A DNA stretch of 47,270 nucleotides, from NCBI GenBank assembly GCA_029882915.1, contig JAOUJZ010000013.1, forward strand, positions 1 through 47,270. The letters run 5' to 3'. The translations under genes and the position numbers were made by a program. Source of the stretch: Gammaproteobacteria bacterium. GTDB taxonomy: Bacteria; Pseudomonadota; Gammaproteobacteria; Nitrosococcales; Methylophagaceae. Within the stretch, counting starts at the first letter, position 1, and every line of letters begins with the position of its first letter. The notes under the pieces are model-generated. The model was not told the DNA's origin and ran no database searches. It saw nothing but the letters and a program-made list of their open reading frames with translations. Below are positions 23,546 to 30,362 of the stretch, in pieces.

Positions 23546-23832
23546 CTCAAACCATCGACAAACAAGCCGCAGCCTGCTTCGATTTAGGTATCACAGATAA
23601 ACATAAACATGCTCCATTAAGTGAATGTGTTGAAACCGCATTAAAAGAATATTTCGAACAACTAGATGGACATCCCGCCGCTAACTTGTATGACATGTTA
23701 TTAGCAGAGGTAGAAGCTCCTTTATTCAGAGCCGCTTTAGAACATACCAATGGCAATCAAAGTCGTGCCGCCGAAATTTTAGGGCTCAATCGCGGTACCT
23801 TACGCAAAAAATTAAAAACTTACGGCTTATAA
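23542..23832 (+). CDS. fis: Nucleoid-associated DNA-binding protein Fis
   Basis: 96-residue Fis, close to the 98 of E. coli. The C-terminal helix-turn-helix reads NQSRAAEILGLNRGTLRKKL, followed by KTYGL at the end, and the central helices (about 30-60) form the dimer core. It bends DNA at promoters, rRNA upstream regions and recombination sites. It is coupled to dusB by a 4-nt overlap and is followed 27 nt later by purH, an order also known from pseudomonads. Confidence 0.96.
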   Translation: MTQTIDKQAAACFDLGITDKHKHAPLSECVETALKEYFEQLDGHPAANLYDMLLAEVEAPLFRAALEHTNGNQSRAAEILGLNRGTLRKKLKTYGL

Positions 23833-23859: not shown

Positions 23860-25425
23860 ATGACTAAGATCCAACGTGCACTACTCAGTGTGTCAGATAA
23901 GACCGGCATTCTGGAGCTGGCACAACAATTAAACCAGCTGGGTATTGAACTACTTTCAACCGGCGGCACCGCAAAACTACTACAAGATGCTGGTTTGCCC
24001 GTAAAAGAAGTGTCTCAACACACTGGTTTTCCAGAAATGATGGATGGACGCATTAAAACCCTGCATCCTAAAATCCATGGTGGCTTATTAGGTCGACGCG
24101 GCAGGGATGAAGCCATTATGGCTGAACATGGTATTGCTCCTATCGATTTGGTGGTGGTGAACCTGTACCCATTTGAAGCAACTGTTGCACGCAATGACTG
24201 CACTTTGCCAATGGCGATTGAGAACATTGATATTGGTGGCCCAACGATGTTGCGTGCCGCGGCTAAAAATCATGCTTCTGTCACCGTGTTAATTGACCCG
24301 GCAGACTATGGCCGTGTGACTCAACAAATTGAAGCTACTGGTGGTGTTGATGATGCCACTCGTTTTGATCTGGCGGTGAAAACATTTGAACATACTGCTC
24401 ACTATGATGGCGCAATTGCCAATTACCTTGGCACCATTACCAATGTGGATAACAAAGCAACATTTCCCCGCACTTTTAATGTTCAGTTTCATAAAGCACA
24501 AGAAATGCGTTATGGAGAAAACCCACATCAAAAAGCGGCATTCTATACTGAGAAACAGCCTGAATCTGGCACCATTAGCGCAGCTGTACAGATACAAGGT
24601 AAAGAACTGTCATACAACAATATCGCAGATACAGATGCCGCTTTAGAATGCGTTAAAGCCTTCCCCGAATCACCCGCCTGTGTAATTGTAAAACATGCCA
24701 ATCCCTGTGGTGTTGCAACAGCAGGTGATTTATTAACCGCCTACGATTTAGCCTATCAAACAGATACCACCTCTGCTTTTGGTGGCATTATTGCCTTTAA
24801 CCGCACATTGGATGCCGCCACTGCACAAGCCATTGTCGAACGCCAGTTTGTTGAAGTGATTATCGCACCGGAAATCAGTGATGAAGCCAAAGCAATAGTC
24901 AGTCAGAAAGCCAATGTACGCCTGCTGACTTGTGGTGCATTTCCTGCTCATGCATCACAAGGGCTAGACTACAAACGTGTAACTGGAGGTCTGCTCGTTC
25001 AAGATCGTGATACTGCGCTCGTGAGTGCCGATGAACTCAAAGTGGTCACTAAAAAAGCACCGACCGAGCAGCAAATGCAGGATTTATTATTTGCGTGGCG
25101 AGTTGCCAAATTTGTTAAATCCAATGCCATTGTCTATGCCAGCCAACAGCAAACTGTGGGTATTGGTGCTGGTCAAATGAGCCGTGTAGTCAGTAGCCGA
25201 ATTGCTGGAATTAAAGCCAATGACGCGGGCTTAACCGTTCCCGGTGCAGTGATGGCCTCTGATGCCTTTTTCCCATTCCGAGATGGTCTGGATGCTGCTG
25301 CTGAAGCAGGTATTAGCGCTGTTATTCAACCAGGAGGTTCCATGCGTGATGATGAAGTGATTGCCGCAGCAGATGAGCATGGCATTGCGATGGTCTTTAC
25401 TGGCATGCGTCACTTCCGACATTAA
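23860..25425 (+). CDS. purH: Bifunctional AICAR transformylase / IMP cyclohydrolase PurH
   Basis: 521-residue enzyme of the last two steps of IMP synthesis. The N-terminal cyclohydrolase (MGS-like) domain covers about 1-150, with [37 protein letters not shown] and NLYPFEATV. The transformylase domain has the catalytic [12 protein letters not shown] and the substrate regions [13 protein letters not shown] and [21 protein letters not shown] before the ATG is a good ribosome binding site. It is followed 18 nt later by the adenylate cyclase homologue, whereas purD follows purH in many relatives. Confidence 0.98.
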
Positions 25426-25443
25426 TAATTATATGGATAACTA

Positions 25444-28101
25444 ATGGAGCAGTTGGAACTCCTTACTCATGTACAAGCACTTAATCGCTCAAGGATAGAG
25501 CGATTAAGTGCATTATCTCCATCTCAGCAACAGCCTTTTTTTGAGCTTCTTCCTTTACTTTTTCACTTGAATTCTGCTGATTTACCCGGCTATATCGAAA
25601 AAAATGCACCCGTTGGCATTGTTGATTATCAGCCCTCAAAATCTCAGATAGATGTCGCAAAAAAACTCTATCCAGGTTTTCAGTATCGCCGCAGGGCTTT
25701 ACGAAGCTATCCAATCGTAGGACTCTACCTGATCAATAATAGCGGCCTGATAAATTATCAGAATCAATCCAGCTTTGAATTATTGCTGGTTCACGCTACC
25801 GACCTTACTGATGCTAAACAACAGGCATTACAGTACAAGCTTATGGTTATCAGCCAGTGGGCTGCATCGTTTGGGATCGCCATTACAACACGCTTATTGG
25901 CTGAAAATGCACTGGCTCAACACCCCCTATCTAGTTATGAACTGGATCGTTTTTATCTCAATGGCTTAATTGTCGCTGGCGCTATTCCACTATGGTGGTT
26001 CATTCCCCCTGGTGAGGATTATCATGAAAATGCTCCTACATTACTTGAACAACGTTCGCTGCATATTCGTTTGGTAGACTTTGGTGATGTCCCTCACTCC
26101 CCCAGCAGTGCTCAGCCATTGTTTGATGAGGCAATAAAGTGCTTAGAAAACAGCCTTGAACATGGCTTAATGCATGTTTTACAGCTCTTACACTTACAGT
26201 ATCATCTCCGACAATATCCCAATCTACCCTGGCTAAGCACCGATCTTAAGCAAGCCATATATCAAGGAGAAACAGAGCCTCTACACGTTGACTACAGGTC
26301 ATTACAGCTTCAGCAACTTGTACAGTCAGATGCACCTGCTGAACTACTGCAACTGGCACGTCAGTCTTTTTATATTCAAGCCAAAGAACGCCTGTCACAA
26401 TCTGTTGACCAACCCAAATATGTCTGGCGACGCACCTTTGTGGCGAAAACGTGTCAGAAATGGCAGTGGCGAGATGATGACTTTAAACTGCTTGATCAGC
26501 GTAGTAATGCTTCATACCAGCACTGTCTAATAGAACATCAACAGACATATCCAATCTTTAAAGATATGAGCACAACACTCAAAACCTTTGCCAAACAGCA
26601 GAGGTTAATCGTCAGGCCACAATATCAATTGATCGACAAAAAACTTCAGCGACTTATTACTGACAATCCCGATATCATTCGTCCATTACCCATTGATCTT
26701 TTAGCCAAACATAACGAGGAGCATCTCTATTTATATCGTTTTGCAGCAGATGGTGAATGGAAAATAAGCACTATTACGCTTACATCGTCAACACAAACGC
26801 CACTCCATCAAAGCTCATCACTACTCAATATACTGGCATGGGCAATTTGTAATCGGGTTCTTACGCGAACTTCCCGAGTTCGGGTTTCTGATAATAGCAA
26901 TGCCATTACCATAACGACTGTTCTGCCTCTGATCCAACAGTTACTGACCTCTCCGTTGGCCGAACCCATCAAAATAATGGATAACGCTCTATTGCAAGCC
27001 CCAGAATTAATGCATGTGCTTCTTTTTGCCAATCTGGGGCAGCAACCCATGGCAAAATTGAGTCAGCAAGGCCTCAAATTATCGAGCTTGAAAAATGATC
27101 CTCTGCATTATGCCAACCGTGGTGAAAGCCTGATTATCCGTATTGATGGATTGATCTGCTCAAGCTGGGGAGAGTGGCATACTTTCGAACATGAGGGAAA
27201 AACAGCCCCTATTGAAATGTTAACAACGCTAATACATTGGTGGAATTCTGATCACAAAGAAGCCCCCAGCTTTCACTGCTGGTCTCCTTCCGATATCTAT
27301 AGCCACATCATTAGCGATCGCCTTGAAAAACTATATATGCAAGTGAAGGATCACTATCATAACTACCCAGATGCCGGCGATTATCTTCTTGTTATTGCGG
27401 ATATGTTTTATCAATTACAATGGCAGTCCGGTAGCTGTGATTTCATCCCCCTGTCACAGACCACAGATATAATGACCGCCCTCGGAAAAGCGCGAACACA
27501 TTTTTCCGCCACTAGAGTTGATGCAAGCCTAGATCCGACAGGCTTATTTTCAACATTATTGAAATATCAATCTGATTCACAGATATCGCTATTTCTGCAT
27601 AGTCATCATCAATCTATTTCCATCTATCTGCTGGATGATCTTGGCGGCCTGTTTCTGCAAAACTATACCAACATCAGCGAATCAACACTGACCCGGCATT
27701 TCCATCGCTTTCTTGGCACACTTAAAGAGCAGAAAAAATTATCTCGACTGCGCTTTTTCAGTATTGACAATCATCATGGTGATGGTAACTGGCATACTAG
27801 AGCGCTGCCACTACCGAACAGCTCAGATAAACATAGTTATCTGCCAGTCGCAGTCACCATGGACAATCCACAACAAGATTCGCTCTGCACGATTACCTGT
27901 GGTTCCAAACAGTTTGTTGGTAAGGCCAATGACGCAGCTCTGTTTGAGCAAGTATCGAAACTTCTGATGAGTTTACGTCAATCCAATAATTATTATGCCC
28001 TTTATATTACCGAACTTAACTTCTCTGAGCCCGCTACCGTGCCTACTCGGGACTACATAGTGTTAAAACAACAGCTGGAAAAGCGACTTAATGCAGGATA
28101 A
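25444..28101 (+). CDS. Class I adenylate cyclase homologue with degenerate catalytic motif (probable pseudoenzyme)
   Basis: 885 residues, similar along most of its length to E. coli CyaA. Shared marks include FFELLPLLFHLNSADLPGYI near the N-terminus, VISQWAASFGI, YVWRRTFVAK, LLNILAWAICNRVLTRTSR and SWGEWHTFEHEG. The nucleotidyltransferase signature, GSTSSVGQSCSSDLDIW in E. coli, is here replaced by NNSGLINYQNQSSFELLL (residues 98-115). The Gly-Ser, both metal-binding aspartates and the Trp are therefore gone; only the Ser before the first Asp remains. As far as I recall, those residues are essential in CyaA. The fold is kept but cyclase activity is unlikely, so a regulatory or binding role is possible. 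It is transcribed with purH and followed by a terminator at 28117-28147. Confidence 0.82.
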   Translation: MEQLELLTHVQALNRSRIERLSALSPSQQQPFFELLPLLFHLNSADLPGYIEKNAPVGIVDYQPSKSQIDVAKKLYPGFQYRRRALRSYPIVGLYLINNSGLINYQNQSSFELLLVHATDLTDAKQQALQYKLMVISQWAASFGIAITTRLLAENALAQHPLSSYELDRFYLNGLIVAGAIPLWWFIPPGEDYHENAPTLLEQRSLHIRLVDFGDVPHSPSSAQPLFDEAIKCLENSLEHGLMHVLQLLHLQYHLRQYPNLPWLSTDLKQAIYQGETEPLHVDYRSLQLQQLVQSDAPAELLQLARQSFYIQAKERLSQSVDQPKYVWRRTFVAKTCQKWQWRDDDFKLLDQRSNASYQHCLIEHQQTYPIFKDMSTTLKTFAKQQRLIVRPQYQLIDKKLQRLITDNPDIIRPLPIDLLAKHNEEHLYLYRFAADGEWKISTITLTSSTQTPLHQSSSLLNILAWAICNRVLTRTSRVRVSDNSNAITITTVLPLIQQLLTSPLAEPIKIMDNALLQAPELMHVLLFANLGQQPMAKLSQQGLKLSSLKNDPLHYANRGESLIIRIDGLICSSWGEWHTFEHEGKTAPIEMLTTLIHWWNSDHKEAPSFHCWSPSDIYSHIISDRLEKLYMQVKDHYHNYPDAGDYLLVIADMFYQLQWQSGSCDFIPLSQTTDIMTALGKARTHFSATRVDASLDPTGLFSTLLKYQSDSQISLFLHSHHQSISIYLLDDLGGLFLQNYTNISESTLTRHFHRFLGTLKEQKKLSRLRFFSIDNHHGDGNWHTRALPLPNSSDKHSYLPVAVTMDNPQQDSLCTITCGSKQFVGKANDAALFEQVSKLLMSLRQSNNYYALYITELNFSEPATVPTRDYIVLKQQLEKRLNAG
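25477..25511 (+). repeat. Perfect 14-bp inverted repeat inside the start of the adenylate cyclase homologue
   Basis: GCACTTAATCGCTC (25477-25490) is the exact reverse complement of GAGCGATTAAGTGC (25498-25511), with a 7-base loop AAGGATA. It lies about 33 nt after the start codon, spanning codons 12-23. In mRNA it would form a long, stable hairpin just inside the reading frame. No T-tract follows, so it is not a terminator. Confidence 0.8.
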
Positions 28102-28165: not shown

Positions 28166-29194
28166 ATGATCAAAGTCGGCATTGTAGGCGCTACAGGTTA
28201 CACCGGAGTAGAACTATTACGCCTGCTCGCAACACATCCTGAAGTGTCGCTGCACATAATCACTTCACGTACTGAAGCTGGCATGGAGGTAAGTGAATTA
28301 TTTCCCAACTTGCGCGGCCATATTGATCTGCGCTTTACTGAACCTGATATAGACCAGTTGTCCACATGTGACGTTGTATTTTTTGCAACACCACACGGTG
28401 TAGGCATGGAAATGGTTCCTACTCTAATTGAGCGTGGCATACGTGTCATCGATTTATCTGCAGACTTCAGATTACGCGATCCCGATCTGTGGCAACAATG
28501 GTACAACACCCCGCATAATTGCCCTGATTTACTCTCACAAGCTGTATATGGTCTACCAGAACTAAATCGTGAAGCTATACGTAGTGCGCAACTTATTGCT
28601 GTGCCTGGTTGTTACCCCACAGCAACTCAACTTGGCTTTTTACCACTGTTAGAACAAGGCATCATTGATCCTCTGCACCTGATTGCAGATGCAAAATCAG
28701 GTGTCAGTGGTGCTGGCAGAAAAGCCGCCATAGGCACATTGCTCACCGAAGCATCAGAAAACATGAAAGCTTATGCTGTCACTGGTCATCGTCACTTACC
28801 AGAGATTGAGCAAGGCCTGAATATGATAAGCCACCACCCAGTCAAGCTTACCTTCGTGCCGCATTTAACGCCGATGATTCGTGGTATTCATGCCACTCTC
28901 TACGGCAGACTAACAAAAGTCATTGACCTACAAGAGCTGTTCGAGCAACGTTATACCGATGAACCTTTTGTGGATGTATTACCTGCTGGCTCACACCCCG
29001 AAACTCGCAGTGTCCGTGGAAGTAACACGTGCCGTATCGCTGTTCACCAACCTCAACAAGGGGATACAGTCGTCGTATTATCGGCCATTGATAATTTGGT
29101 TAAGGGTGCATCTGGTCAGGCCATCCAGAACATGAATATTATGTTCGGCTTTGATGAATCACTCGCTATCAACGACATCGCGATCTTGCCCTGA
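28166..29194 (+). CDS. argC: N-acetyl-gamma-glutamyl-phosphate reductase ArgC
   Basis: 342-residue NADPH-dependent reductase of arginine biosynthesis. The dinucleotide fold starts [20 protein letters not shown]. The catalytic cysteine C149 lies in [13 protein letters not shown], followed by [11 protein letters not shown] and the histidine-bearing [13 protein letters not shown]. This is the standard type 1 family with complete length. No other arg gene is adjacent, and the next gene starts 3 nt after its stop. Confidence 0.97.
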
Positions 29195-29196
29195 TT

Positions 29197-29895
29197 ATGT
29201 CATCAAATGCTAAATATGTTATCCATCAGCCTAAGCCTTTTCGCTGTGCGATAATCGTCTTTTCTGCGATAAGCATTACCATAGTGTCAATGTGGCTCTA
29301 TCTGAATCAACAGTCAATAGGACAATTACATACAGAACTACTGATCCAACAACAGCGTAATCATACATTATCTGAAGAGAATCAGGATCTTAAAAAAGAG
29401 GCTCGGAAACAAGCTCGGAAACTAGAAACACAACAGCATTTTCTGAACATCCAGAAAGTCACAGATCAACAATTGCAACTCCAGTTGAAAGAACTCCAGG
29501 ACAAAGTGGTTAATCTGAATAAAGAACTTATTTTTTACCAGAACTTCACTCTGGGTATTAGCGGTGAAAAATTACAAATTCGTGAACTGCATCTACGCGC
29601 AGATGACTTACTACCTGATATATTTAGATATCGTTTAGTTATTACTCAGGGAAAAGACATCAAAAAACCTATTACTGGAACTATCCAACTAACACTTAAT
29701 CAGCGTGATAGTGATAACAATGCTCCACTTAATATTGGCGAGCACGAACTTAGGTTACGTCATGTGCAAGTGTTTGAAGGAAAAATAAAATTGGCAGATA
29801 ACATGGTTCCAGATAATATTACTGTCACTCTAAAACAAAATAATAAAATAGCCCTATCGAAAACATTTGACTGGCTACCTACTGCCACCCACTAA
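29197..29895 (+). CDS. Membrane-anchored coiled-coil protein (DUF6776-like)
   Basis: 232 residues with one N-terminal transmembrane segment (about 17-37) and then a long charged, heptad-rich coiled coil (about 40-115). An internal duplication of the motif ARKQ/ARKL is visible. A C-terminal globular domain (about 120-232) should lie in the periplasm. It resembles the DUF6776 family, which is often found immediately ahead of bactofilin in gammaproteobacteria. The start overlaps the neighbourhood of the argC stop (3-nt gap) and bactofilin follows 18 nt later. A role in cell-envelope organisation is inferred only from the bactofilin neighbour. Confidence 0.7.
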   Translation: MSSNAKYVIHQPKPFRCAIIVFSAISITIVSMWLYLNQQSIGQLHTELLIQQQRNHTLSEENQDLKKEARKQARKLETQQHFLNIQKVTDQQLQLQLKELQDKVVNLNKELIFYQNFTLGISGEKLQIRELHLRADDLLPDIFRYRLVITQGKDIKKPITGTIQLTLNQRDSDNNAPLNIGEHELRLRHVQVFEGKIKLADNMVPDNITVTLKQNNKIALSKTFDWLPTATH

Positions 29896-29912: not shown

Positions 29913-30362
29913 ATGTTCAACAAAGGAAAAACAACCCGTATTGACACACTTATCGGCCAGCATACACACATTAAAGGTGATATCAGCTTTAATGGTGGTT
30001 TGCGCATTGATGGCAGTGTTGCTGGTAACATCAATGCTACTGGTGACAATAAGTCAGTACTCTCATTGAGTGAACATGGTCATATTGAAGGTGAAATCAG
30101 AGTGCCACACCTGATTATCAATGGCACGATGTCGGGAAATGTCTACGCGTCACAACATGTCGAGCTTGCGCCTAAGGCAATGATAAAAGGTAATGTTTAC
30201 TATAATCTTCTTGAAATGGCGATGGGTGCAAAGGTAAATGGTCAGTTAATTCACATCAATGAGCAAGACAACAATATTCTCGACTTAGAACATGAAATTG
30301 TAGATGACAGTGATACAACAGAACAGCTGGAATTATCGCGCAATAATAGTGAGGAACTATAA
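29913..30362 (+). CDS. Bactofilin (polymer-forming cytoskeletal protein)
   Basis: 149-residue bactofilin (DUF583). The core of about 100 residues is a right-handed beta-helix built from short repeats such as GDISFNGGLRIDGSVAGNI and HIEGEIRVPHLIINGTMSGN. Short flexible tails flank it; the C-terminal one is acidic. Bactofilins polymerise without nucleotide into filaments at the membrane and help localise cell-wall enzymes. A good ribosome binding site (AAAGGT) precedes the ATG. The penicillin-binding protein gene follows after 367 nt. Confidence 0.92.
   Translation: MFNKGKTTRIDTLIGQHTHIKGDISFNGGLRIDGSVAGNINATGDNKSVLSLSEHGHIEGEIRVPHLIINGTMSGNVYASQHVELAPKAMIKGNVYYNLLEMAMGAKVNGQLIHINEQDNNILDLEHEIVDDSDTTEQLELSRNNSEEL

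Follow-up and report, generated by a model that had tools for sequence, protein, structure and literature searches.

A family-wide class I adenylate cyclase homologue of Methylophagaceae lacks active-site residues and is likely maintained as a pseudoenzyme

Why would a bacterium keep a full-length class I adenylate cyclase whose active site has disappeared? The question is raised by a stretch of 47,270 nucleotides (the window; contig JAOUJZ010000013.1 of assembly GCA_029882915.1) from a gammaproteobacterium of the family Methylophagaceae, in which the open reading frame at 25444..28101 on the forward strand encodes an 885-residue homologue of CyaA, the pseudo-cyclase or pseudo-CyaA. The original prediction, made from the sequence alone, had proposed a full-length CyaA that had lost its catalytic residues while remaining under selection. 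We find that this degenerate cyclase is real, family-wide, and undescribed as far as literature searches show. Textbooks present the class I cyclase as a regulator of carbon use in bacteria, yet to our knowledge signal sensing by its C-terminal half is poorly understood; in a natural family that has lost the catalytic residues while selection retained the C-terminal half, this half can be studied on its own.

Homology to CyaA extends over the full length of the protein. Both Pfam domains score well over the cut-off of 27 bits, namely Adenyl_cycl_N (PF12633; 117.8 bits, E = 8.1e-34) and Adenylate_cycl (PF01295; 158.3 bits, E = 3.8e-46), and the length is similar to that of the E. coli enzyme. 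In contrast, the pseudo-cyclase falls far under all NCBIfam equivalog cut-offs for class I cyclases, with a best score of 444.1 bits where the cut-off is 1300, while an intact orthologue (L003) reaches 1445.7 bits. A class I cyclase domain match is thus no proof that a genome makes cyclic AMP (cAMP) by that enzyme.

We aligned 41 distinct Methylophagaceae sequences, near-copies removed, with E. coli CyaA and 53 further class I cyclases (together the 54 others); residue numbers such as Gly102 and Asp114 follow E. coli CyaA. Broken copies in G003, G007, G013, and G063 were left out of the family rows, as were G074, G077, G078, and G079, and two rows (L096, L101) are open N-terminal pieces of frames interrupted further on. 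From the 53 ordinary matches in a 184-genome sample of the class, 50 were aligned (G089, G218, and G228 left out), and a region in G099 (19.9 bits, under the cut-off) yielded no relative. All 54 other cyclases retain Gly102, Ser103, Ser113, Asp114, Asp116, Trp118, Gly175, Glu185, and Arg188. In the family, Gly102 and Arg188 are retained in no row, Ser103 and Asp114 in two each, Glu185 in one, and Ser113 in one, the window protein itself, while the stretch with Gly175 and Gln178 is absent from all 41. Trp118 is kept in 35 rows, and the Asp116 position is acidic in 34 (16 Asp, 18 Glu). Ser103, Ser113, Asp114, Asp116, and Trp118 of E. coli CyaA are required for activity. We infer that residues required for catalysis have been lost, the requirement itself being known for the E. 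coli enzyme or judged by conservation.

In the window protein, Asn98-Asn99 (25735..25740) replace Gly102-Ser103, and Ser109-Ser110-Phe-Glu112-Leu-Leu114 (25768..25785) take the place of Ser-Asp114-x-Asp116-x-Trp118. The proposed changes of Gly-Ser to Asn-Asn and of Trp118 to Leu114 are thus borne out by the alignment, and Ser113 persists as Ser109. The claim that both aspartates had given way to Phe, Glu, or Leu stands only for the loss of the first, which is Ser110; the second is Glu112 and still acidic. A misregister of that reading is ruled out, only its Asp assignment being wrong: the catalytic hairpin measures 23 residues in intact and family rows, and with equal lengths the register of the alignment is plain. 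Further downstream, a deletion of about 12 residues takes out the Gly-Ser-x-Gln loop, leaving a gap at Gly175 and Gln178; judged by alignment and by the spacing of conserved residues, the shortening lies approximately at 25921..25944. Accordingly, the distance from Lys136 to Tyr187 is 52-53 residues in 54/54 intact rows and 39-41 in 41/41 family rows. Directly behind this site, Arg169 and Leu172 (25948..25959) replace Glu185 and Arg188. Compared with E. coli CyaA, the pseudo-cyclase hence lacks Gly-Ser, the first Asp, the Gly-Ser-x-Gln loop, Glu185, Arg188, and several lysines. Of all copies, that of Methylophaga sp. 41_12_T18 (L084) stays closest to the ancestral Asp motif, with Ala-Asp-Phe-Asp-Leu-Trp; the genome of this organism (G032; 94% complete) is without a strong Crp match.

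The losses are concentrated in polar positions. At the 58 positions where 96% or more of the intact rows agree, mean retention in the family is 0.33 for the 24 polar ones, compared with 0.60 for 12 glycines and prolines and 0.61 for 22 hydrophobic or aromatic residues. The structural positions Arg19, Lys136, Tyr187, Gly195, and Trp200 are retained in all 41 family rows. The pattern is that of a fold apparently kept and a site discarded. A sharper separation is obtained with 15 positions, at all of which 53 of the 54 others (E. coli included) agree with E. coli while each family row agrees at only one to four; however, these were hand-picked from the 58 with most family-kept ones omitted, so that this count is illustrative and the 58-position analysis is its unpicked version.

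Structure prediction is consistent with this view. AlphaFold2, given 25 family rows, yielded a mean predicted local distance difference test (pLDDT) score of 88, and the nucleotidyltransferase core (residues 85-190; 25696..26013), from which the catalytic-type residues are gone, retains its predicted fold. The best Foldseek match is a spectinomycin adenyltransferase (E = 1.9e-3; template modeling (TM) score over the target 0.36), followed by more aminoglycoside nucleotidyltransferases, matches that are weak but consistent with the expected nucleotidyltransferase fold. A sequence search of the PDB with E. coli CyaA matched no chain. The C-terminal 285 residues alone are predicted with a pLDDT of 90. 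An actin-like fold for this part was considered because of a Foldseek match to 3hrg (E = 3.8e-4) and rejected, with a TM score of 0.19 and a root-mean-square deviation of 13 Å.

Selection on the gene was estimated with our own Nei-Gojobori script as the ratio of nonsynonymous to synonymous substitution rates (dN/dS) in six close family pairs and one intact pair (G039/G040). The pseudo-cyclase gives 0.209, 0.188, 0.109, 0.146, 0.129, and 0.167, and the intact cyclase pair 0.134; values for more distant pairs are rough because dS exceeds 1. For purH, these six pairs give a dN/dS of 0.023-0.054, and G039/G040 gives 0.081. The pseudo-cyclase is under purifying selection, as had been proposed from its intact frame, yet more relaxed relative to purH than the intact enzyme. 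The nucleotidyltransferase core alone gives 0.09-0.18. Identity of the catalytic half exceeds that of the C-terminal half in 306 of 325 intact pairs versus 86 of 300 Methylophagaceae pairs, and where C-terminal identity lies between 0.30 and 0.42, the catalytic half has an identity of 0.525 in 187 intact pairs versus 0.330 in 211 family pairs. This comparison used 26 intact rows, fewer than the 54-row set, and a few frames carry residues upstream of the true start. By these identities, constraint has shifted from the catalytic half, where relaxation is strongest; conservation of the C-terminal half (residues 421-885; 26704..28098) is now about equal to that of the former catalytic half.

The genomic context points to descent from an intact cyclase. 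The gene begins 18 bp after purH (23860..25425, +) and is followed after 64 bp by argC (28166..29194, +), names that we assign, like most others in the operon, from familiarity with sequence and position. Eight Methylophagaceae regions with the whole gene (L037-L044) share the order accC, prmA, dusB, purH, pseudo-cyclase, argC, DUF6776 protein, bactofilin. In G039 and G040, which belong to f2, the one further family of the order that the search covered (presumably Nitrosococcus and kin in GTDB), the order is accC, prmA, purH, intact cyclase, argC, and homologues of the two downstream genes; these are the two of six f2 genomes that carry a class I cyclase. Because the pseudo-cyclase occupies the same operon position, it is an orthologue of the intact enzyme and, on this evidence, would descend from an active one, the activity of the G039/G040 cyclase being assumed from its motifs. 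The original prediction had stressed the linkage to purH; the linkage holds, but since the intact cyclase sits alike, it is inherited and no part of the change, and a new operon context is rejected as an explanation. In the tree, a branch with full support has all 41 Methylophagaceae rows on the same side.

Carriers of the gene span the family. Methylophagaceae (NCBI places Methylophaga in Piscirickettsiaceae) are methanol-using bacteria, and most members keep a full-length pseudo-cyclase: the N-terminal cyclase domain is present in 48 of 57 genomes, and in 39 of these the frame stays open for 850 codons or more. The 30 loci of relatives come from Methylophaga isolates and from metagenome-assembled genomes (MAGs) labelled Methylophaga, Methylophagaceae, Piscirickettsiaceae, Gammaproteobacteria, or Pseudomonadota; M. 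sulfidovorans DSM 11578 and M. aminisulfidivorans MP, both isolates, are among the family carriers. A scan of genome contigs with the single window protein as query gave no match. The source genome (1.94 Mb in 94 contigs, 90.2% complete) contains no second class I cyclase match, intact or otherwise. The single-contig genome G063 (L213; G063:C1:1673000-1684000) has a split pseudo-cyclase, but its prmA and dusB are split too, so that this copy probably reflects sequencing errors (indels) rather than real decay; it is counted as short-framed in the tally of 39 of 48.

Synthase, hydrolase, and receptor all depart from the E. coli pattern in Methylophagaceae. Class III cyclases occur in only 2 of 57 genomes and not in the source genome, whereas 22 of 26 comparison genomes have at least one; replacement by a class III cyclase is therefore rejected for 55 of the 57, other cyclase classes not having been searched. 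The sole strong class III domain match in the family (L109; G033:C8:26484-27008) lies within a 737-residue frame. CpdA is found at the cut-off in none of the 57 genomes, with weak matches in 11. A strong Crp match (E < 1e-25) is present in 50 of 57, two of these being partial (G013, G066). We read the Crp pocket of 30 genomes out of the 54 that have a match, that of G013 as two fragments; comparison sets for Crp (24 genomes) and class III cyclases (26) were hand-picked, not sampled. Residue 83, which we take to be a cAMP contact in E. coli (pocket numbering and meaning are likewise assumed), is Ser in 4 of 29 readable family rows and Thr in six more, versus Ser in 19 of 21 outside the family; Met, Gly, Thr, Lys, Gln, or Ala account for the other 25 rows (L111-L140). 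Thr127 is kept in 22 of 30 family rows versus 21 of 21 outside. The two outside exceptions at Ser83 are Thr in G247 and Asp in G036; the latter genome (L245, G036:C1), of the same order but outside Methylophagaceae, has no class I or class III cyclase match. On these sequences, the cAMP system appears reworked in the family as a whole, while the Crp of the source species could still bind cAMP.

What, then, is the protein for? The full length has been kept despite the loss of nearly all active-site residues, which suggests that the pseudo-cyclase now has a different, non-catalytic job. Bacterial pseudoenzymes are inactive homologues retained for binding or scaffold roles, and the pseudo-cyclase resembles them in keeping scaffold and purifying selection without catalytic residues. 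Since selection still acts on the protein, it is most likely a working pseudoenzyme. Moreover, the C-terminal half of E. coli CyaA is its regulatory part, linked to the phosphotransferase system (PTS), and by analogy that of the pseudo-cyclase may be regulatory as well. We consider it likely that the protein is kept for this regulatory half, the cyclase chemistry having been lost and selection acting on the C-terminal half. An ordinary class I cyclase would have been inherited vertically into Methylophagaceae, in whose ancestor the catalytic core would have been lost together with Gly102, the Gly-Ser-x-Gln loop, and Arg188, all gone in every row; the first Asp, Glu185, and several lysines, lost in nearly every row, would have gone while the fold and the C-terminal half were retained. 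The regulatory half might still bind the partner or signal by which the cyclase was formerly controlled, and relay it by protein contact instead of cAMP. The pseudo-cyclase would thus make no cAMP and serve a binding or scaffold role. The pseudoenzyme reading of the original prediction is supported by the family-wide residue loss, the kept scaffold, purifying selection, the lack of a second class I match in the source genome, and synteny with an intact orthologue; long frames in 39 of 48 carriers, the scarcity of class III cyclases, the absence of CpdA at its cut-off, and the drift of Crp Ser83 also speak for it. Its claim of novelty also holds within open-access PubMed Central (PMC), where no paper contains both ‘class I adenylate cyclase’ and ‘pseudoenzyme’ and no class I example among bacterial pseudoenzymes was found.

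Several observations weigh against this interpretation. The window protein still has one acidic residue, Glu112 at Asp116, and 10 of 41 family rows carry acidic residues at both aspartate positions, one of them as Asp-x-Asp. Crp Glu72 is kept in 30/30 and Arg82 in 29/29 readable family rows, and the source genome's own Crp retains Ser83 and Thr127; cAMP sensing may therefore persist in some species. The ratio of pseudo-cyclase to purH dN/dS is 2.5 to 5.6 in the six pairs versus 1.7 in the intact pair. The gene is absent from 9 of 57 genomes, and as purH directly adjoins argC in six of these nine (G011, G018, G020, G022, G031, G060), clean gene loss has occurred; in G013 it is fragmented while its neighbours are intact. 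Being absent in nine genomes and broken in at least one, the pseudo-cyclase is dispensable in places. Finally, a Foldseek search of the C-terminal fold against the PDB gave no convincing match.

An alternative is that the nucleotidyltransferase fold stays but its chemistry has changed, yielding another nucleotide-using or nucleotide-binding protein. Residues 85-190 are still 0.44 identical within the family, Lys136 is invariant in 41/41 rows, Leu-Ile-Asn at 96-98 is invariant in the 25-row alignment, and the predicted fold bears its weak resemblance to nucleotidyltransferases. However, inspection of the invariant residues by eye revealed no new active-site-like set of polar ones, and species differ freely at the former first Asp position, which leaves this explanation unlikely.

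cAMP might also still be made, weakly or by an altered site in which Glu112, the acid at E. coli position 300, and others substitute for the lost residues. In keeping with this, an acid (Asp or Glu) stands at position 116 in 34 of 41 rows and at position 300 in all 41, and both Asp positions are acidic in the ten rows mentioned; 50 of 57 genomes retain a strong Crp match, and every readable row has Arg82, even though no class III cyclase is found in 55 of 57. Against this stand the complete loss of Gly102, the loop glycine, and Arg188 and the loss of Ser103 in 39 of 41 rows, none of which is lost in the 54 intact rows, as well as the missing CpdA above the cut-off and the drifted Crp Ser83. 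We regard residual synthesis as quite improbable.

We give equally little credence to the idea that the protein is a relic in slow decay, left over from a cAMP system that has been lost. The nine absences, the broken copy in at least G013, and an evolutionary rate above that of adjacent purH and argC would fit such decay, but dN/dS is 0.11-0.21 overall, and the former catalytic core is no exception at 0.09-0.18. In addition, a long frame persists in 39 of 48 carriers, and invariant residues remain across rows only 34-60% identical to the window protein.

Although many of the genomes are MAGs, an assembly or alignment artefact is refuted for practical purposes: hairpin lengths are equal, and one and the same loss is seen in 41 distinct rows, those of the two isolates named above among them. 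All 41 are without Gly102, the glycine of the loop (Gly175), and Arg188, which all 54 others possess.

Loss of the active site in a class I cyclase is not confined to Methylophagaceae. In the 184-genome class sample, the cyclase of G183 scored 83 bits versus at least 213 for the 53 ordinary matches, and degenerate class I copies, 11 in total, occur in 10 of 54 genomes of its family, f123 (L210 at G183:C7:600500-612500, L211, L212, L197-L206). Like the Methylophagaceae proteins, these are full-length homologues with a destroyed catalytic hairpin. The lesion differs: the hairpin is shortened by six residues in f123 (17 versus 23, in 11/11 copies), while hairpin residues are substituted in Methylophagaceae. 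The flanks are also unlike those in Methylophagaceae, with a major facilitator superfamily (MFS) gene in 10/10 genomes and a response regulator gene directly upstream in 6/10; one such regulator, scanned with Pfam, has two receiver domains. All ten genomes carry class III cyclases, for which reason the class I enzyme has probably been superseded in f123, and Crp Ser83 is kept in 8 of 8 such genomes tested. The tree comes with a caution about long branches that meet and does not discriminate between one and two origins. Two separate losses are favoured, given that the lesions differ and that another family of the Methylophagaceae order has an intact orthologue.

On a bolder view, the cyclases of Methylophagaceae and f123 became signal-transducing pseudoenzymes at least twice. 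In Methylophagaceae, this would have produced a cAMP-free switch alongside a drifted Crp, the old input being passed to Crp or another partner by contact, while in f123 the input would come from the dual-receiver response regulator. This combined scenario is speculative and rather unlikely as a whole. A strong Crp match is found in 45 of 48 gene-bearing versus 5 of 9 gene-less Methylophagaceae genomes (hand-made counts; Fisher p 0.009 for all 57, 0.045 for the more complete genomes), but an obligate pairing of Crp and pseudo-CyaA is not relied on here, being confounded by genome reduction and completeness.

Some minor observations concern further copies and neighbouring genes. G297, a genome which already has one degenerate copy, carries a second, very divergent cyclase-like copy (L207/L215; G297:C14:47000-57500) that is about 20% identical to the G183 copy. 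Downstream of argC in the window, the conserved neighbours are the genes for the DUF6776 protein (29197..29895, +) and bactofilin (29913..30362, +). Between dusB and purH, a short frame at about 23548-23832 encodes a putative Fis protein.

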